The translations under genes and the position numbers were made by a program. The notes beneath the pieces were generated by a model that was given only the letters and a program-made list of their open reading frames with translations, was not told where the DNA came from and ran no database searches. A DNA stretch of 64,000 nucleotides from Rhodothermales bacterium (lineage in GTDB: Bacteria > Bacteroidota > Rhodothermia > Rhodothermales > Bin80), in assembly GCA_022822185.1 (NCBI GenBank), contig JAJECE010000010.1, positions 1 to 64,000 on the forward strand, in the 5' to 3' direction. How positions within the stretch are numbered: position 1 is the stretch's first letter; every line of letters begins with the position of its first letter. Shown here piece by piece: positions 19,685 through 32,145 of the stretch.

Positions 19685-20575
19685 GTGACTCGCTTTCTTT
19701 CCAGACTGATCATGCTGACCCTGATTGGCTGCGCTGCAATCTCATGCAACCAATCCATTACATTGGAGCAGCAAATAGAAGCAGTAATCAGCGAATACCC
19801 CGGTGCCACCGTTGCCGTGTCCATTCGGGATGCAAGCACACAGACCACGCTGGACCTCCTCCCTGACCGCTCTTTTCACGCCGCCAGCACCATGAAGGTG
19901 CCTGTGCAGATTGAAGCATGGCGCCGCGTTCGGGATACTGATCTCTCCATGGATTCAACTCTTGAGGTAAAAAACTCTTTTCGCTCCATTGTAGATGGAA
20001 CACGCTACAGCATTGAGGATGATTCGGATGATGCGATCTACAAGCGGCTGGGAGAGCGCATGACGATCTCCGAGTTGATCTACCAGATGATCACTGTATC
20101 GTCCAATCTGGCGACGAACCTTCTGATTGATTTTCTGGGGGCAGAATCCGTTCAGCAGACGGTTGATTCTCTGGGTGCCCCCCAGATGAAGGTGCTTCGG
20201 GGAGTGGAGGATATCAAAGCGTTTGAACGTAACCTCAGCAACACAACGACCGCCCCTGCTTTGGCAGCCCTACTGGAAGCTGTCCGAAAGGGGCAGGCCG
20301 TTGGACCTGCCGCGGACAGCAGTATGGTTGCAGTACTGCTGGAGCAGGCATTCAATGAAATGATTCCTGCCGGACTCCCGTCCGATGTGCGGGTGGCCCA
20401 CAAGACTGGACAAATTACACGGATCCATCACGATGCGGCAATCATCTATCCGCCAAACGCTCCGCCATATGTCGTGGTGATCCTGATTGAGGGCTTAGAT
20501 GACGATTCCGAATCCGCTGCACTCGGGGCAGCCATCACACGCACCGTACACGCTGCACTGCGAGAGCAACCATAG
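19685..20575 (+). CDS. class A beta-lactamase-like serine hydrolase, lipoprotein
   Basis: A 296-residue exported protein. The signal region ends with a lipobox-like A-I-S-C (Cys21), suggesting a lipid anchor. Penicillin-binding-fold motifs are present: S68-T-M-K71 (SxxK), S139-S-N141 (SxN) and K240-T-G242. Between them GVEDIKAFERNLSNTTTA resembles a shortened omega loop ending in the usual TTTP-like turn; the general-base Glu of true class A enzymes is not certain. It may be a beta-lactamase or a related peptidase/esterase. It starts 4 bases after hisG, so it is probably the last gene of that transcription unit, and it is convergent with the TonB receptor gene. Confidence 0.85.
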   Translation: MTRFLSRLIMLTLIGCAAISCNQSITLEQQIEAVISEYPGATVAVSIRDASTQTTLDLLPDRSFHAASTMKVPVQIEAWRRVRDTDLSMDSTLEVKNSFRSIVDGTRYSIEDDSDDAIYKRLGERMTISELIYQMITVSSNLATNLLIDFLGAESVQQTVDSLGAPQMKVLRGVEDIKAFERNLSNTTTAPALAALLEAVRKGQAVGPAADSSMVAVLLEQAFNEMIPAGLPSDVRVAHKTGQITRIHHDAAIIYPPNAPPYVVVILIEGLDDDSESAALGAAITRTVHAALREQP

Positions 20576-20647: not shown

Positions 20648-22897
20648 CTACAGGGAATACGTAACGGTCAGGTAGAGATCACGGCCCAGACTGGGGAGAT
20701 TCCCATAACTAAGGTGTTTGTGATAGTACACATCAAATATATTGTTGACTCCTGCACTGATCTCCATGTGTCTAGACACCGCACCGGAACCGGGTTGCAT
20801 CCTTCCGCGAACATTCACAACAAAATAACCGTCGGTTACATCTTCGTCTGCCAGTTTTTGAGCCACCCGGTTCTGGGGCATCGCCATACGGATCTCCAGT
20901 TCACTGGACCACCGATCACGCATAACACGAAGACTAGATCCGCCACTAAGTGGAGGGATTAGATACATGGGCTCGTCTAGTTCAAGGTTCTGCCCGCGTG
21001 TATAGGAGGCGGTGGCCGTCCACTCAAACCATTTCCTGAAATCTATGACCGCACTCAGTTCTCCGCCCAGAAGCAGCACCGCCGATGCATTCTGATAAGT
21101 TCTGAACCTCAGTGTCATATTGCCTGACAGGCTTCCATCATTTTCGCCAGCGATGTAGTGCTGAATGTAATTCCCGAAGACGCTGGCCCGGAGCGCCAAA
21201 CGGGAGGTCCACCGCTCAAATCCCAATTCAGCCTGCGTACTTCTCTCCGGTTTCAATGCAGGGTTGCCGGTATAGAAATACCCGTCAACATAATTGTAGA
21301 CATAGTGTCCATAATTTTCTACATGGGTAGGGAGGCGGCCGACATTGGCCAATGAAAGTCGCAGCAGATTTTCGGATCCAATGGATCTGGTGAGGCTGAA
21401 ACTTGCCCCTGCAAGGGTATATGACCGTGCAAGTGTACTGATATTCCAGCGCCCCTGCAGTACAGCTACCGCTTCATCACGTAACACATCACGAGGGGAA
21501 TGATCCAGACGTACCCCTATGCGTGCAGTCAAACCCGGTCGCAGCCGTGAAGTGAGATCCAGGGCAATTGCTCCATGGCGCACACGGACATCTCCCAGAT
21601 TCAGCAGATACATGTCCGGGATATTCTCAAATACGCTGAACATCCACATATCCCCAAAGCTTTTGGTCTGGTAGGCATCCAGTGTAACCTTTAACCGGTG
21701 TACTCCATGTGCCAGTTCCAGTGTACTCAATCCACCGGTCGTTCTCGTCTTTCCGAACATTGGCATGTGCATGGCACGCATGACCGGGCGCTCCCAGACA
21801 TTCCGATCAAAATCACTCATCCAGTGATCTACCCGGTTAGTGTAGAGCTTGGTCTCCCACCTTGAGATCCAATGCAGCCCGGGAGTCCAGACGTAGGTTA
21901 AACTATAGATTTTGGCTTTTGCCAGCGCGGCATCCATTAACAGAACAGGATAGCCCACCTCCCATGCATTGTCTCCCAGGAAAGATGCGGTGAATTCATG
22001 CTGCCGGCCAACCCGCTGAGATAGATCTAATTTGTAATTGTTCTTTTTGAAACCGGAACCCGGAATGGGGTTCTGGCCCCCTGGGCTAAAATCTCCCGCC
22101 TCTTTGTAGGAAAAGCTGCCCCGAACACTGGTATTTTTGTGAGAACCCCCACCGGATACACGCCCCTGACGCAGTTTTGCGGCAGAACTGTAGTTCACCT
22201 CTGCATCGGCATAAAGGGGACGATCAAAGCGGGGTTTCCGGGTAACTAGGTTAATCGTGCCGCCGATCTGGGAGGCTTGGGTCAAATCAAAACCCCCTTT
22301 GGTGAGTTCCAGTTTTTTCAAGTTTTCCACTTCGACATAAGACGAGGACGGATCCATCTTATCCACACATGCTCCAACCACCTTGATCCCGTCAATCACA
22401 AGTCCAACCTGCCCTCCGCTGAGCCCCCGGATGACTGGTTCCCAGGCAAAATTGGCACGCTGAACAAAATCTGTACCGGGTACACGATCCAACAGATCCT
22501 CGGTTGCTTTCAGGTGATGCGAAGCAGTTGCAGGATCGTTGATTCGCGGAGAACTGCTCTGCACGACAACTTCATCCACCGCAATGACCGCAGGCATAAG
22601 GGGAATTCTTAAATGATCCTGAGAGACAGATCCGGCAGAAACTGTGAATTCGGCGGGCGTATATCCAACAAAAGAGATGCGAAGTTCATACTCACCTTCC
22701 GGCAGAGCCAATTCAAAATGACCATTCCCATCGGTCGTCGTACCGGTTCCACGATCTAAAACCATGACGGACGCAGACCCAATCGCCGTGCCGGTCAACG
22801 CGTCCACCACATGCCCATGAACGATATTCTGCGCCTGCGCGGGCCCAATGCACACAGGCAACAGACACCAGATCCAGAGATTTCTGACCAGACGCAT
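20648..22897 (-). CDS. TonB-dependent receptor (putative copper/metal-complex uptake)
   Basis: An outer-membrane receptor of 749 residues from the ATG at 22897 (MRLVRNLWIWCLL..AQAQ, a clear signal peptide); a 26-codon upstream extension is not used. It has an N-terminal carboxypeptidase-regulatory-like domain (HGHVVDALTGTAIGSASVMV), a plug domain (AVDEVVVQSSSPRIN, VPGTDFVQRANFAWEPVIRG, IGGTINLVTRKP) and a beta-barrel ending in YLTVTYSL. The start overlaps the stop of the preceding gene as TGATG, so they are translationally coupled. The neighbouring MbnP- and MbnH-like genes suggest copper or a copper chelate as substrate; that is inference from context. Confidence 0.9.
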   Translation of the reverse strand: MRLVRNLWIWCLLPVCIGPAQAQNIVHGHVVDALTGTAIGSASVMVLDRGTGTTTDGNGHFELALPEGEYELRISFVGYTPAEFTVSAGSVSQDHLRIPLMPAVIAVDEVVVQSSSPRINDPATASHHLKATEDLLDRVPGTDFVQRANFAWEPVIRGLSGGQVGLVIDGIKVVGACVDKMDPSSSYVEVENLKKLELTKGGFDLTQASQIGGTINLVTRKPRFDRPLYADAEVNYSSAAKLRQGRVSGGGSHKNTSVRGSFSYKEAGDFSPGGQNPIPGSGFKKNNYKLDLSQRVGRQHEFTASFLGDNAWEVGYPVLLMDAALAKAKIYSLTYVWTPGLHWISRWETKLYTNRVDHWMSDFDRNVWERPVMRAMHMPMFGKTRTTGGLSTLELAHGVHRLKVTLDAYQTKSFGDMWMFSVFENIPDMYLLNLGDVRVRHGAIALDLTSRLRPGLTARIGVRLDHSPRDVLRDEAVAVLQGRWNISTLARSYTLAGASFSLTRSIGSENLLRLSLANVGRLPTHVENYGHYVYNYVDGYFYTGNPALKPERSTQAELGFERWTSRLALRASVFGNYIQHYIAGENDGSLSGNMTLRFRTYQNASAVLLLGGELSAVIDFRKWFEWTATASYTRGQNLELDEPMYLIPPLSGGSSLRVMRDRWSSELEIRMAMPQNRVAQKLADEDVTDGYFVVNVRGRMQPGSGAVSRHMEISAGVNNIFDVYYHKHLSYGNLPSLGRDLYLTVTYSL

Positions 22898-23685
22898 CAG
22901 GATACCGTAAAGCCCTTGAAGTATACGGTATCCTGCACCGTACCTGCACGCTGAATAAACACGGTCACTTCCCATCCGCCGGACATAATAAAATTCACCG
23001 ATCCCCGATACCGTCCGTGGTGTACATGCACGGGGGCTTCATACGGGGTACTGTGACCTTGCCCGGCCCCCATATCCATCCACGGGAACAGATCAATCCT
23101 GGCATCCTCCAGAGGAAGAAACTGCTCATCGACCAGGCGATGAAGGGCAAATTCAATCACATCAAGCCCCGTCACCGGATGAACGGGCCGTACCCACGAT
23201 ACATAATATCCATCCGTGTACTGCACCCATATAGATGACTGTATCTCAACAGGGAGCACCGCCTCCCCTGATTCTCCACCAGCAGTATAGGTGATTTGCA
23301 GTTGCCAGTCCCCTTCTTCGCCATGCGGGGCAATGAACAGCGGAGCCCCTTCAAAGCGGCCCGGTCTGTCGGTGCGGACAAGCTTCACGGTCCCTAGGGG
23401 AGAGGAAACCGTTCGCGCTCCGGCCGCCCATTTTGAGAGAACCCTAAAGTCGCCGTCCGAAACGGGCACCCCATCCACAGCGGCTTCCACCCAGAGAATA
23501 CTCGCCCCCATACGAAGGGAGTCGGGGGCCATCAGATTGATGGAAAGCCGCCCATCTCTGATTACAGCCAATGCTACCGATGTGTCCTCGGGATCGGTAG
23601 GGTGCTCCCGAAAAAAATCGGTGTCTGTGATGCTCGGTGCACACCCTGTCAGAAAGCAAACGATAACCAGGAGAATTCTGATCAT
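22897..23685 (-). CDS. lipoprotein with FixH/YtkA-like domains (putative)
   Basis: A 262-residue lipoprotein with lipobox L-T-G-C (Cys15). The body is beta-rich with two similar halves. The end (HVHHGRYRGSVNFIMSGGWE) resembles the Ig-like YtkA/FixH fold, in which a His-containing strand precedes 'G.W.v.v.i'; HVHH and the earlier DMGAGQGHSTPYEAPV could offer His/Met metal ligands. It overlaps mbnH by 4 bases (ATGA) and the receptor gene by one, and so belongs to the same operon. A periplasmic metal-binding or partner role is inferred. Confidence 0.65.
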   Translation of the reverse strand: MIRILLVIVCFLTGCAPSITDTDFFREHPTDPEDTSVALAVIRDGRLSINLMAPDSLRMGASILWVEAAVDGVPVSDGDFRVLSKWAAGARTVSSPLGTVKLVRTDRPGRFEGAPLFIAPHGEEGDWQLQITYTAGGESGEAVLPVEIQSSIWVQYTDGYYVSWVRPVHPVTGLDVIEFALHRLVDEQFLPLEDARIDLFPWMDMGAGQGHSTPYEAPVHVHHGRYRGSVNFIMSGGWEVTVFIQRAGTVQDTVYFKGFTVS

Positions 23686-24686
23686 GGCCCTTCCATCCCT
23701 GCAAAAAGGGTGGTGTCAGTGAGCGCGTGCAGAAATGCTTCCAGATCTGCCTGTTCCTCTTCCTCCAGGCCCAGCGGTTGAATCAACAGATTTTTGCCGC
23801 GTACATCCCTTCCCCCCTGATCGTAATGATCAATCACCTCCGATAAGGTCGCCATCCCCCCGTTATGCATATAGGGGGCCGTTTGCGCAACATTGCGCAG
23901 GGAGGGTACTTTAAATTTTCCGTAATCTTCTTCCAGGCCGGTCACACGGGCACGCCCGGAATCTTCTTTGCTGATCGCAATTCCGTTATTCTCGAACCTG
24001 AGACTGGTAAGGAGGAATCCATGATGGCAGTGCAAACACCCGGCCTTCCCTTCAAACAGTTTATAGCCTCGTATTTCGGCGGGGGAGAGTGCTGTCTGAT
24101 CCCCTGCTTTATAGCGGTCATAGCGTGCACCACCACTGAGCAGAGTTCGCTGATAGGCCCCGAGCGCCTGAGTTAATCCCCGCAGGCTCGGAGCCTCATC
24201 AAATAGTTCCTCAAATGCTTCCCGATACGTCGGAATAGATTCGAGTCGCTGCAGCACAGATGCAAGGTCTAGTGCCATTTCGTCTGGATTTTGGAGCGGA
24301 CCGAATACCTGATGTTCCAGAGTAATACTGCCTCCATCCCAGAAGAACAACTGATGGTAGGCGATATTAAGCAGAGACGGGGTATTTCGTATTCCGGGCC
24401 GCCCTCCAACTCCGCGGCTCACCGCCTGTCCATCTGCAAAGAAAGCGTTCGGGCGATGACAGGTTGCACAGGAAACCGTACTGTCAAGCGAAAGGACGGG
24501 ATCAAAAAACAACTGCTGCCCCAGAAGGACTTTGTCTCTGGTGAGGGGGTTGTGAACCGGAATGGGAACGGGATCAAACCCAATCGGCACCACCGGACGC
24601 AACTGCTCTTCCGAGGTTGAATCCGGTGGTGCACAGCCCGATACAGCCAGCACAACAAAAACGAGTCTACAGCTATGGGCAAACAT
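23682..24686 (-). CDS. mbnH: MbnH-like di-haem cytochrome c peroxidase family lipoprotein
   Basis: A 334-residue protein with lipobox A-V-S-G-C (Cys18). It has two c-type haem sites, C73-A-T-C-H77 and C217-L-H-C-H221, as in the MauG/CcpA family, plus FFADGQAVSRGVGGRPGIRN and the C-terminal YMHNGGMATLSEVIDHYD typical of the family. MbnH proteins are MauG-like enzymes that oxidise a Trp of their partner MbnP to kynurenine (established for methanotroph MbnP/MbnH). The gene directly follows an mbnP-like gene (50 bases) and overlaps the next gene. The MbnH name rests on this pairing; an ordinary cytochrome c peroxidase cannot be excluded. Confidence 0.8.
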   Translation of the reverse strand: MFAHSCRLVFVVLAVSGCAPPDSTSEEQLRPVVPIGFDPVPIPVHNPLTRDKVLLGQQLFFDPVLSLDSTVSCATCHRPNAFFADGQAVSRGVGGRPGIRNTPSLLNIAYHQLFFWDGGSITLEHQVFGPLQNPDEMALDLASVLQRLESIPTYREAFEELFDEAPSLRGLTQALGAYQRTLLSGGARYDRYKAGDQTALSPAEIRGYKLFEGKAGCLHCHHGFLLTSLRFENNGIAISKEDSGRARVTGLEEDYGKFKVPSLRNVAQTAPYMHNGGMATLSEVIDHYDQGGRDVRGKNLLIQPLGLEEEEQADLEAFLHALTDTTLFAGMEGP

Positions 24687-24736
24687 CTCCAGGGGGTTCT
24701 AGCCGATCTTGTATTCCCACTGCCAGATCACAGGGA

Positions 24737-25606
24737 TCAACCATCAGCAGATGTGCTGACCCCCGTCCTCTTTCTATCGGTACTGACCGCAAATGCAGAG
24801 GGAATTTGATTCGCCACGGCATTTGCGACAGGAAGATTATTCATGGTATGACAAATCCGCTGATCTGGATCAGACAGATCTACATTGCGCAAAAACTCTC
24901 CGTAATCAATACTGAGGTCAAGGATTCCGGGCTGATCCGCCTCAAGGATCAGGTCATGGGTAACCATGACTTGCCTGAGGAACCGCTCTGTACCTAAATG
25001 TACGGCCCATTCATCGTCCGGGACAGCGTCACCGTCGGTATCTACTTTTCCATCTATTCGGAGGTAGAGGTACCCGGCATTCCAGTTCCAGTGATTATTG
25101 TAGTCTGTCTGTTTGGCTAACGGATGACCTGCGGGCACCTGAGACGGATCAATGCGGTTGTTCGTGCCAGCGATGCCAATCTTAAAGTGGATTTTCTCAT
25201 ATTTCCCTGCCGGCCAGGTGCCAAGATCGTATGAATCTATCCCCGCGTCCTGCTTTACAAGAACAATGTGATCCTGGACGGTATGGGAAATGTCTTCATC
25301 ATCTTCGTTTTTTGCGGGGACCGTCAAACCGTCGCCCAAAATGGATACGGGATCCCCATTACTGTTGATCAGGGTGATTTCCGAGATGTACATCCGTACG
25401 GATTCAAAGGAGATCAGGGTTCCGTTCACGTCAAAGGTGGCACCAGGATCTGTAGAGAGCGGCTTCCCGTTGACCTGGGCATTCAGGTTAAGGGTCAGGG
25501 TGGTACTCCCGGTATCCGAGGTCGCCGCATCACACCCGACCAGAAACAATACCATCAGGTTTACTGCTATAAAGAGGTTATTCCGGTAATTCATTCGTTC
25601 GGTCAA
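24737..25606 (-). CDS. mbnP: MbnP family copper-binding lipoprotein (putative)
   Basis: A 289-residue lipoprotein with lipobox V-G-C (Cys25). The beta-sandwich body contains TTLTLNLNAQVNGKPL, ISFESVRMYISEITLINSNG, YEKIHFKIGIAG, and the hallmark NNHWNWNAGYLYLRIDGK with Trp173 and Trp175, ending with the MNNLPVANAVANQI segment. In characterised MbnP proteins a conserved Trp in this region is oxidised to kynurenine and takes part in high-affinity copper binding (established for the family). The ATG at 25594 (MNYRNN) is an equally good start. The gene lies upstream of the MbnH-like gene, the FixH-like lipoprotein and the TonB receptor. Confidence 0.82.
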   Translation of the reverse strand: MTERMNYRNNLFIAVNLMVLFLVGCDAATSDTGSTTLTLNLNAQVNGKPLSTDPGATFDVNGTLISFESVRMYISEITLINSNGDPVSILGDGLTVPAKNEDDEDISHTVQDHIVLVKQDAGIDSYDLGTWPAGKYEKIHFKIGIAGTNNRIDPSQVPAGHPLAKQTDYNNHWNWNAGYLYLRIDGKVDTDGDAVPDDEWAVHLGTERFLRQVMVTHDLILEADQPGILDLSIDYGEFLRNVDLSDPDQRICHTMNNLPVANAVANQIPSAFAVSTDRKRTGVSTSADG

Positions 25607-25791
25607 CTGTTAAAGTGTGCACAATTCGTACTTCGCACCGAATTCGGTGCGCTCAAGCAAAGCTGGGTACAATGACCTGCGAGGGTACTTTCAAACAAGC
25701 GGGTGCTTGAAATCACGTACCGGTGGACGAAAACGACTAATACAGAATGTGCGTAGATCTTCTGCACAAGTCTGAAGATCCAATTCGCAGG

Positions 25792-26148
25792 TCACGAATT
25801 GTGCGGAGGGCCTCGGGCCAGACGGGATTTTAAGAGGGCGGGTTGCCACTGAGTCGCAGTGTGTTGAAGAAGCGGATCGGCAACCGGGTCATACGTTGGA
25901 GAAGTAACGGGTTGTGCAAGATCCCCAATCAGGGGCACAGCAAAGAGCGCCAGATATGGACATGCATCGTGCCCCTCATGCGCATCTTGATAGCCTTCTC
26001 CGTGGGCCGTTTTATGGCTTGCCCCATGCACCGGGGCATACATATCGCTTGCAGCCATGTACACCAAGTGCGTCAGAGGCGAAAACAAGCCTCCTACGAT
26101 AAGTACACCTGCCAATAAAACGGATGCCTTCCGGCGGGAAAACTTCAT
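25792..26148 (-). CDS. DUF2946-like small His-rich membrane protein
   Basis: A 118-residue protein with an N-terminal membrane segment (VLLAGVLIVGGLFSPLTHLV), then a His-rich stretch VHGASHKTAHGEGYQDAHEG followed by HDACPYLALFAV. The His cluster plus 'CPY' recalls DUF2946 proteins, which are found beside copper and other metal genes; the usual second Cys of the CPxC motif is missing. It lies 185 bases upstream of mbnP in the same direction and may be the first gene of the copper operon or a separate unit. Confidence 0.6.
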   Translation of the reverse strand: MKFSRRKASVLLAGVLIVGGLFSPLTHLVYMAASDMYAPVHGASHKTAHGEGYQDAHEGHDACPYLALFAVPLIGDLAQPVTSPTYDPVADPLLQHTATQWQPALLKSRLARGPPHNS

Positions 26149-26991: not shown

Positions 26992-27405
26992 ATGTCGGAA
27001 CAACGACCGGAAACGGTGCGTCTCTTCTCTTTCTTTCGGAAATTAACGGAAGGAGAAGAAGTGTCAATAGACGAAGTTCACGAAGCAACCAACGATATTT
27101 ACACCATGTCAGGAATTAACAACATTTCCCAATTCGGAGCCCAAATGGAAGGCTTCAAGGAAGCCGTATTAGCGAGGCTCGAATCTACAAATATAAAGAT
27201 AGATGCGCTCACCGAATCTACAAATACAAAGATAGATGCGCTCACCGAGTCTACAAATACAAAGATGGACGCGCTTAACGAATCCACAAATGCAAAGTTG
27301 GATGCCCAAAACAGCAAGTACAATATATTGCTATGGATGATTGGGCTATTCGGTGGATTAATCTCACTTATCCTGACCTATGCCACCTTCTTTGCTGAAC
27401 AATAA
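26992..27405 (+). CDS. coiled-coil membrane protein with 11-residue repeats
   Basis: A 137-residue protein. Residues about 1-60 are soluble (GEEVSIDEVHEATNDIYTMS). Then come four 11-residue units (ESTNTKIDALT type), a spacing typical of hendecad coiled coils, then NSKYNILLWMIGLFGGLISL and a transmembrane helix ending in TYATFFAEQ. Topology is probably a long coiled coil with a single C-terminal membrane anchor. A shorter paralogue follows at 27483, sharing everything from MSGINNISQFGAQ onwards. The function is unknown; a structural or scaffold role is conceivable. It is of the general DUF1640/Bdr-like kind but is not assigned to a family. Confidence 0.7.
   Translation: MSEQRPETVRLFSFFRKLTEGEEVSIDEVHEATNDIYTMSGINNISQFGAQMEGFKEAVLARLESTNIKIDALTESTNTKIDALTESTNTKMDALNESTNAKLDAQNSKYNILLWMIGLFGGLISLILTYATFFAEQ
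27181..27312 (+). repeat. 33-bp tandem repeat, four units (hendecad coiled coil)
   Basis: Four consecutive 33-base units (27181, 27214, 27247, 27280), each beginning gaatctacaaat or a close variant, encode 11-residue units of the ESTNTKIDALT type. A matching set of three units lies at 27591..27689 in the paralogue. Confidence 0.9.
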
Positions 27406-27482: not shown

Positions 27483-27782
27483 ATGTCAGGAATTAACAAC
27501 ATTTCTCAATTCGGAGCCCAAATGGAAGGGTTCAAGGAAGCCGTGCTGGCGAGGCTCGAAATTCTTAGTGCGGGGATCGCTTCGTTCACCGAATCCACAA
27601 ATGCAAAATTGGACACGCTCACTGAATCTACAAATACAAAGATGGACGCACTCACCGAGTCTGCGAATGCAAAGCTGGATGCCCAAAACAGCAAGTACAA
27701 TATATTAACATGGATGATCGGGCTATTCGGTGGATCAATCTCACTCATCTTGGCCTATGCCACCTTCTTCGCTGAGCAATAA
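27483..27782 (+). CDS. coiled-coil membrane protein, shorter paralogue
   Basis: A 99-residue protein lacking the first 38 residues of its neighbour. It starts MSGINNISQFGAQMEGFKEA, identical to the internal part of the 26992 gene, and retains three 11-residue units, the SKYNIL...GLFGGSISLIL membrane segment and the YATFFAEQ end. The similarity begins abruptly at 'tacaccatgtcagg', so it is a partial tandem duplication. Its first unit is replaced by ILSAGIASFT. The shared start context means this Met may also be an internal start in the first copy. Confidence 0.6.
   Translation: MSGINNISQFGAQMEGFKEAVLARLEILSAGIASFTESTNAKLDTLTESTNTKMDALTESANAKLDAQNSKYNILTWMIGLFGGSISLILAYATFFAEQ
27591..27689 (+). 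repeat. 33-bp tandem repeat, three units
   Basis: Three 33-base units (27591, 27624, 27657) encode ESTNAKLDTLT, ESTNTKMDALT and ESANAKLDAQN. They are homologous to the array at 27181 but one unit shorter, suggesting copy-number change by slippage or unequal recombination. Confidence 0.85.
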
Positions 27783-30372: not shown

Positions 30373-32145
30373 ATGAACCGCATTGAGGTTGATTTATTTT
30401 CGGAGTCTAACATTACGCAGCGTGCGGCCGGTTACGATTCCGTTGATGCCGGAAAACTCAATGCCTGGCTGGATCCTTACATTCCGAAGGAGCGTGCCTG
30501 CATTCTGGATATCGGTGCCGGCAGTGGCCGGGATGCGGCCTGGTTTGCGTCGAAGGGACACAGTGTGTGTGCAGTGGAGCCTGACCCCCAGCTATATCAG
30601 GCAGCCAAGGCCAAACTACATGATTCTAAGCCCCCCTTTACCTTAGTGGAAGACCGGCTGCCCGACCTTAAAAAGACAGGTGTCGTGAGTGGCATGTCAT
30701 TTGATCTGATCCTGCTGAATGCGGTTTGGATGTTCATTCCCGAAACGCAGCGCGAACGCAGTTTTCGGAAACTGATCACCCTCCTGAAGCCTCGGGGAAT
30801 CATCGCATTCACACTGCGCACACCGTGCGAGTCCCATCGAGGGATGCACCCGACTTCTGTTTCTGAAATTGAAGCGCTTGCAAAGGGACACGGTGCCTAC
30901 GTTGAATTTACTCAGGAAGTGGAGGACTTACTTGGACGGCCAGGTGTGAAATGGCATCAGATCATCGTCCGTCTGCCGGATGACGGTACGGGCGCATTGC
31001 CGCTTGTTCGGCGGATTGTACTGCTTGATAATAAATCTGCGACCTACAAGCTCGCACTGCTTCGATCTCTGTGCAGAGTGGCCAGTATCTCGCCTGGTTT
31101 GGCACATGAATCCAGTCAAGATCAGGTGGCGATCCCGCTGGGAGCGGTAGCCCTTTCCTGGATCCAGCTCTATCTTCCTTTACTGAACAATGACATGCCC
31201 CAGAGACCGGACAATGAATCCGGGGGGCAGCGCATCGCATTTGTCAAAGATGCTCTCGAAAAATTCATCCCAAATCCACAGGATGTTACCCAACTCCGAA
31301 CCGGCGCATCACTGCATTCTGACCGCGGGATGGATTTGACAAAATCCATTCGAGATGCCGCGGCAACGATTGCAAAAATGCCAGTGAACTATCTCAATTA
31401 TCCGGATGGACGGCCGATTTTCAGGGTAACCAAGAAGCGTCTCAAAGTCCGCCGTTCCATCACACTGAACGAGGAGTATTTTTCGCAGTTCGGAGAAATG
31501 ACCGTCCCTATTCACCTCTGGCAGGCGCTCCTGCGGTATAATGTGTGGATTGAACCCGCTCTGGTTGAGGAATGGATCCGGCTGATACGCCGATATGCGG
31601 AGCGGCAGAACAGACAGGTGGACGAACTGAAATTAAGGCGACTGATGCGTCCCTATGAACCTGATCGCAATCAATTGGAAGTCCGCAGGCATGCGCTGGC
31701 ATTACTGGACACTCAGTCAATCCATTGCGTATGGACGGGTAAGAAGTTACAGGCCGGAAACATGGATATTGACCACTGTCTCCCCTGGGCAGTATGGCCA
31801 TGCGACGATCTTTGGAATTTGATGCCTTCCAGCAAGACGGTCAACCGCAGCAAGAGAGACTATTTGCCCAACAATATTACCATCCGGGAAGCACAGGACC
31901 GGATCATGACCTGGTGGGAGAATGCCTACCGCAGAGAAGCAGCAACGAGGGAACGGTTTCTTCTGGAGGCAAAGGCCCGGTTGCCCGCGTTAAAGGAGTC
32001 CATCCCCTCACTTGATGACGTATTTTTGGCTTTAGACCTGCAGAGGACACGCCTGTATAATGATCATCGCATTCCTGAATGGTCCGGTCCCCGCGGATCG
32101 AATCCAGACCTTCATTCCACGAATGAGAGCAGCCATGATCTATAA
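30373..32145 (+). CDS. class I SAM methyltransferase-HNH nuclease fusion protein
   Basis: A 590-residue two-enzyme protein. The N-terminal domain (about residues 1-205) is a Rossmann methyltransferase with the SAM loop LDIGAGSGRDAAWFASKG (Asp46 to Gly52) and SFDLILLNAVWMFIPE; it is not a DNA amino-methyltransferase, since the NPPY/DPPY motif is absent. A middle region (about 210-440) begins VRRIVLLDNKSATYKLALLR and has no recognised domain. The C-terminal part carries an HNH nuclease: C452-VWTGKKL, DIDH468CLPW, LWNLMPSSKTVN and SKRDYLP. The nuclease core residues are present. Proteins of this architecture occur in many bacteria but no function is known to me; a nucleic-acid modification or defence role is inference. 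Confidence 0.85.
   Translation: MNRIEVDLFSESNITQRAAGYDSVDAGKLNAWLDPYIPKERACILDIGAGSGRDAAWFASKGHSVCAVEPDPQLYQAAKAKLHDSKPPFTLVEDRLPDLKKTGVVSGMSFDLILLNAVWMFIPETQRERSFRKLITLLKPRGIIAFTLRTPCESHRGMHPTSVSEIEALAKGHGAYVEFTQEVEDLLGRPGVKWHQIIVRLPDDGTGALPLVRRIVLLDNKSATYKLALLRSLCRVASISPGLAHESSQDQVAIPLGAVALSWIQLYLPLLNNDMPQRPDNESGGQRIAFVKDALEKFIPNPQDVTQLRTGASLHSDRGMDLTKSIRDAAATIAKMPVNYLNYPDGRPIFRVTKKRLKVRRSITLNEEYFSQFGEMTVPIHLWQALLRYNVWIEPALVEEWIRLIRRYAERQNRQVDELKLRRLMRPYEPDRNQLEVRRHALALLDTQSIHCVWTGKKLQAGNMDIDHCLPWAVWPCDDLWNLMPSSKTVNRSKRDYLPNNITIREAQDRIMTWWENAYRREAATRERFLLEAKARLPALKESIPSLDDVFLALDLQRTRLYNDHRIPEWSGPRGSNPDLHSTNESSHDL

Follow-up and report, generated by a model that had tools for sequence, protein, structure and literature searches.

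Five co-directional genes on the minus strand of the window (the whole 64,000-nucleotide stretch of DNA analysed here), running from 26148 to 20648, most likely serve to import ionic copper into the cell. The reading that we favour, with a probability of about 0.68, is that of an ionic-copper acquisition operon combining a CruR-like stalling leader, an OprC-type receptor, an MbnP protein modified by MbnH and a YtkA-like relay. In order of transcription, the features are:

25792 to 26148, minus strand: CruR-like upstream ORF of 118 aa (PF11162, 22.7 bits; invariant residues in relatives; spacing and motif statistics)
25595 to 25791, minus strand: long intergenic gap, candidate copper-dependent (Rho-type) termination site
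24737 to 25594, minus strand: MbnP lipoprotein (PF20243; Trp and His invariant in 16/16; AlphaFold2 model compared with 7l6g)
23682 to 24686, minus strand: MbnH-like di-haem MauG-type lipoprotein (TIGR04039 as best NCBIfam match; 6e1c; invariant Tyr288)
22897 to 23685, minus strand: YtkA/FixH-like lipoprotein (PF13115; alignment of 8)
20648 to 22897, minus strand: OprC-type TonB-dependent receptor (OprC 6fok; CxxxM and HxM copper site)

The gene content was established directly: a DUF2946-like ORF, MbnP, MbnH, the YtkA/FixH-like lipoprotein and the TonB receptor are all present where the original prediction had placed them. The overlapping stops and starts that it described are also there, the MbnH and YtkA genes sharing 4 nt (23682-23685) and the YtkA and receptor genes overlapping as TGATG at 22897, given a receptor start at the Met27 codon; the last three genes therefore appear tightly coupled. 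This receptor start at 22897, where a signal peptide begins, is probably to be preferred over 22975, and MbnP probably starts at the ATG at 25594 rather than at the TTG at 25606. The gap between the DUF2946-like ORF and MbnP measures about 197 nt. Lipobox-like cysteines were read directly in MbnP (LVGC), MbnH (VSGC) and YtkA (LTGC) and are invariant in the alignments. A search for MbnB gave no match in the genome carrying the operon (98.8% complete), which separates it from a methanobactin operon and agrees with the predicted lack of methanobactin genes.

MbnP matches PF20243 above the gathering score (E 1e-25, 91.2 bits for a cut-off of 27). Its best NCBIfam match, TIGR04052, gives 57 bits, yet lies below the equivalog cut-off of 140, so that we consider it a divergent PF20243 member and not an equivalog; this is also the case for MbnH and the receptor, divergent members whose best NCBIfam matches likewise fall below the cut-offs. 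The expected W-N-W-N-x-G-Y signature reads WNWNAGY, with the first Trp of WNW at 25088-25090. In the alignment of MbnP relatives, this first Trp of WxW and the His of HLG are invariant (16/16), and a profile of these relatives matches the MbnP of Methylosinus trichosporium (7l6g, E 1.6e-7). Moreover, six chains of 7l6g were top-ranked by Foldseek for an AlphaFold2 model of the protein (probability 1.00, TM about 0.5), nothing else being convincing among the matches. This model has a mean pLDDT of 79 and derives from a six-row alignment, with low confidence around WxW, and the geometry of the site was therefore not read from it. While the fold and the WxW motif are common to both proteins, the Rhodothermales subfamily has an extra His before WxW and its C-terminal Met is not conserved among relatives; this is the Met of CHTM (Met255 in the numbering of the 289-aa ORF), which we take to be the OB3b-type Met copper ligand. 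Its lack of conservation counts against the favoured reading, as do the scores of MbnP and MbnH below the NCBIfam cut-offs. On the basis of the conserved residues, the first Trp of WNW is predicted to become kynurenine. When named genomes were scanned with the MbnP alignment, at least five loci emerged; the organism is placed in Rhodothermia through its relatives, a named one being Rubrivirga.

MbnH was reportedly studied by Kenney in 2019, and Manesis is said to have described in 2021 an MbnH-dependent kynurenine in MbnP and a wide distribution of these proteins. The di-haem protein of the operon belongs to the CCP_MauG family (PF03150, E 5.7e-52), and its two CxxCH motifs (residues 73-77 and 217-221), both invariant in the alignment, bear out its description as a two-haem MauG-like protein. 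PF03150 spans CcpA as well as MauG, and both MbnH (245.8 bits for a cut-off of 362.9 in the TIGR04039 MbnH family) and MbnP score below their family cut-offs, as might be expected if the protein were an ordinary peroxide-removing peroxidase for which MbnP is not a substrate. We regard this as very improbable: MbnH is its best NCBIfam match, its best PDB match is 6e1c, a "Di-heme enzyme" (E 1e-49), and the MbnP and MbnH genes adjoin in the operons surveyed. In addition, residues 53-289 align with residues 11-295 of MauG, the ends of the alignment placing Tyr288, invariant in 15/15 relatives, at MauG Tyr294; both MauG and BthA use this Tyr as the sixth ligand of the haem (PMC6405878). The match to 6e1c and the invariant Tyr288 at this position thus favour an enzyme of the MbnH/MauG type, resembling MbnH (TIGR04039, 6e1c) as a di-haem MauG-like protein with a Tyr at the ligand position, although its chemistry is a prediction from sequence. 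The MbnP/MbnH pair also has its own TonB receptor, as had been proposed. Known MbnP/MbnH pairs likewise have a TonB receptor nearby, whereas the Rhodothermales operon is divergent and devoid of methanobactin genes. CorA/CorB and MopE/SACCP are functional analogues of the pair, and kynurenine copper sites are known in CorA and MopE (PMC3912023).

The receptor (PF00593, E 2e-24) also contains plug and CarbopepD_reg_2 domains, and its best NCBIfam match is TIGR01778 TonB-copper, with 153 bits yet below the equivalog cut-off of 472. Among solved structures, OprC is the nearest to it (6fok, E 1.9e-28), with the CxxxM and HxM motifs aligned: C203, M207, H384 and M386 (numbering of the 775-aa ORF) correspond to Cys143, Met147, His323 and Met325, the copper ligands of OprC (PMC8610252). 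All four residues are present in 11/11 receptors of MbnPH-YtkA operons, and none of them in the four receptors compared from other loci. Because the CxxxM-HxM site of OprC is kept in all these operon receptors, ionic copper is likely to be the cargo rather than a metallophore, as judged from sequence comparison. The receptor could instead import an unknown chalkophore, a small molecule chelating copper, that MbnPH would handle as in methanobactin producers, and methanotrophs do have isolated MbnPH pairs in the vicinity of MbnT-like receptors (PMC3621798); with an ionic copper site in 11/11 operon receptors and MbnB absent from the genome, we judge such a cargo quite unlikely. With ionic copper as the preferred cargo, the closest comparison is OprC of P. 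aeruginosa (PMC8610252), which shares the full CxxxM-HxM copper site; the Rhodothermales receptor differs by an N-terminal carboxypeptidase-regulatory-like domain and by its partner genes, MbnPH and YtkA here and the FoxB-like reductase PA3789 with OprC. No description of an OprC-type site in such an operon was found in the accessible literature.

The lipoprotein encoded between MbnH and the receptor matches YtkA (PF13115, E 1.7e-10) and harbors the signature MxMG..GHSTP...FIMSGGW, in which M203, M205, H211, M234 and W238 are invariant among 8 relatives. Its recurrence in operons of the same type supports the proposal that this FixH-like protein is a further component of the system. From its residues it is a plausible copper relay, and the invariant Met/His signature marks it as a concrete candidate to act downstream of MbnP in the route. 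NosZ was considered as a client enzyme and rejected, its one match being weak and C-terminal (19.4 bits).

The first gene had been described as a His-rich DUF2946-like protein. The ORF exists and is His-rich; its PF11162 score lies just below the cut-off of 23.7, and it most likely acts as an arrest leader of the CruR-like, copper-responsive kind and not as a working copper protein. In Bordetella, the nascent CruR (DUF2946) senses copper via a CXXC motif and stalls at RAPP when copper is absent, which prevents Rho termination before a TonB receptor gene (PMC9426467). Stalling of CruR was later demonstrated in vitro, and RGPP is a strong arrest motif (PMC12992588). The Rhodothermales ORF displays the pattern of CruR, being the first gene, followed by a long gap (162 bp in B. 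pertussis), with an export signal and a C-terminal RAPP-like motif at fixed spacing. It ends in RGPPHNS, with RGPP at residues 112-115 (25804-25815), and its single Cys, Cys63 (25960-25962), lies in H60-x-x-C63-x-Y65 (sequence CPYL). Cys63 and Arg112 are separated by 49 residues, exactly as are Cys90 and Arg139 in B. pertussis CruR (PMC9426467), and both ORFs head genes of copper uptake, proposed as such here. The two differ in that CruR comes from Proteobacteria, carries RAPP instead of RGPP, and has CXXC where the Rhodothermales group has a single Cys, mostly as HxxCx[YF]. The CXXC copper motif of CruR was tested for and is missing, which is why we term the ORF CruR-like and not CruR. Its His-richness and its export signal or N-terminal transmembrane segment would also suit a functional exported copper-binding protein. 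However, neither the length nor the sequence of the His-rich stretch is constant, and the few invariant positions (C63, Y65, R112, P114 and P115 in 9 relatives) at near-constant spacing fit the logic of a leader; moreover, two DUF2946 relatives, CruR and CutF, function as leaders, and their products went undetected in cells. An exported copper protein is thus unlikely, and an arrest leader is preferred.

A search with nine such ORFs recovered this leader family in 50/244 genomes of the class, and within 345 genomes sampled from the phylum it is confined to the same order; the model was seeded with nine RxPP sequences and is biased toward finding RxPP. The fetched loci contain 2194 ORFs of 80 aa or more, of which 47 carry R[GA]PP in their last 12 residues; 46 of these 47 are members of the family, an enrichment that is partly by construction, all nine seeds having carried RxPP. 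No relatives were found on plasmids. The family comprises two groups. In the CXXC group (n = 23), the first Cys is placed 44-46 residues ahead of RxPP, and the genes that follow the leader are mostly those of other TonB receptors. In the single-Cys group (n = 25), the leader precedes an MbnPH-YtkA-receptor operon, the gene of another TonB receptor or an AhpC/TSA thioredoxin-like gene; the Cys lies 47-49 residues before RxPP in 24/25, with Y/F at +2 in 24/25, His at -3 in 18/25 and a second Cys at +3 in 0/25. Since these members lack the copper-sensing CXXC of CruR, they could use another ligand than CruR, or even respond to another metal. In the accessible literature, no Rhodothermales leader group combining HxxC with a near-fixed spacing was found described. 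Variants with CxxxC instead of HxxC occur in three loci (L085, 632-1006; L087, 8236-8862; L033, 8675-9043), those of L085 and L087 preceding AhpC/TSA (ResA-like) genes and not transporters. A second leader-like ORF in L033 (17058-17525, minus strand), carrying CTLC as well as RGPP, is located about 8 kb away from the single-Cys leader, and both leader types may thus coexist in one genome.

The gap between the leader and MbnP is the candidate site of termination. A C>G bubble covers the 3' half of the upstream ORF and the gap; 14% of the window stretches have one as large, and it was discarded as proof of Rho termination since this is not significant. Single folds compared by eye revealed no recurring RNA structure in the gap, and no canonical promoter above chance was detected near the upstream ORF. 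The gap also includes a perfect 18-bp palindrome, CGCACCGAATTCGGTGCG (25634-25651), about 40 nt before the MbnP start, which is identical in the nearest relative (L025) and was not seen in L024 and L026.

Some elements of this arrangement are already known: a 2013 study (PMC3621798) described MbnP/MbnH pairs that lie near TonB receptors but not within Mbn operons, and operons headed by CruR homologues with MbnPH-like genes downstream have been known since 2022 (PMC9426467). In the class, MbnP is present in 25/244 genomes, and 13 MbnP loci, that of the window included, carry a single-Cys CruR-like leader; several of these 13 end at contig ends, and the full order is not readable in all. The same gene order, which the original prediction proposed to look for in other genomes, does recur within Rhodothermales as upstream ORF, MbnP, MbnH, YtkA and receptor. 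A sister clade (L030, L032, L035, L038, L114/L152) has the same operon type with another small ORF in place of the leader and unrelated to it; this ORF contains a membrane segment as well as the motifs CxN...C(D/E)GxC and, at the C-terminus, (H/V)PP. This CxGxC...[HV]PP family is found in 118/345 genomes sampled from the phylum and is a candidate for a widespread metal-responsive arrest peptide of Bacteroidota. Its members lie in the leader position upstream of MbnP in L028, L030, L032, L035, L038, L041 and L114. In an MbnH tree, several forks of which are weakly supported, operons with one leader type stand apart from those with the other inside the operon clade, and the HPP leader is also seen with the distant MbnPH lineage of L028/L041. 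The HPP family (A2) may belong to the CutF-like leaders of PMC9973294, copper-sensing exported leaders with a similarly proline-rich C-terminus, whose survey includes Bacteroidota; copper enhances the stalling of CutF and activates, unlike what is proposed for the CruR-like leader. We tentatively suggest, at slightly less than even odds, a new Rhodothermales class of metal-sensing arrest peptides that reads copper by His-x-x-Cys in place of CXXC, with a second, unrelated and independent stalling sensor (CxGxC...HPP) at the same position of this operon in a sister clade. Such a leader exchange on one operon was not found described in the accessible literature.

From these features we infer a copper-dependent scheme in which the operon would be on under copper shortage. 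When copper is scarce, ribosomes would stall on reaching the C-terminal RGPP of the leader and the downstream genes would stay transcribed, while copper bound to the HxxC site of the nascent leader would release the stall, and transcription would end in the long gap, possibly through Rho. Copper ions would cross the outer membrane through the OprC-type receptor. In MbnP, oxidation of the first Trp of WNW by MbnH would yield a kynurenine and so equip this anchored lipoprotein with a tight Cu(I) site, and the Met/His-rich YtkA-like lipoprotein may then pass copper onward. The operon would thereby unite an arrest leader, an ionic-copper receptor and a kynurenine-type copper protein with its maker in a testable logic. 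For CruR, neither this lineage nor this metal motif has been described, and the range of copper-sensing leaders would widen accordingly; the operon also suggests that MbnP/MbnH can serve ionic copper instead of a chalkophore.

Other loci of the window deserve mention. A class A beta-lactamase-like lipoprotein (19685-20575, plus strand; PF13354, E 8e-51) is encoded directly after hisG and is convergent with the copper operon. On the other side, two closely similar small ORFs lie in tandem (26992-27405 and 27483-27782, plus strand), each with repeats of the ALTESTNTKMDAL type and, towards the C-terminus, a membrane segment; a Pfam search with one of them gave no match. Finally, a gene at 30373-32145 (plus strand) codes for a methyltransferase domain (PF13649) followed by a C-terminal HNH endonuclease domain (PF13395), and is perhaps a restriction-modification or defence protein.
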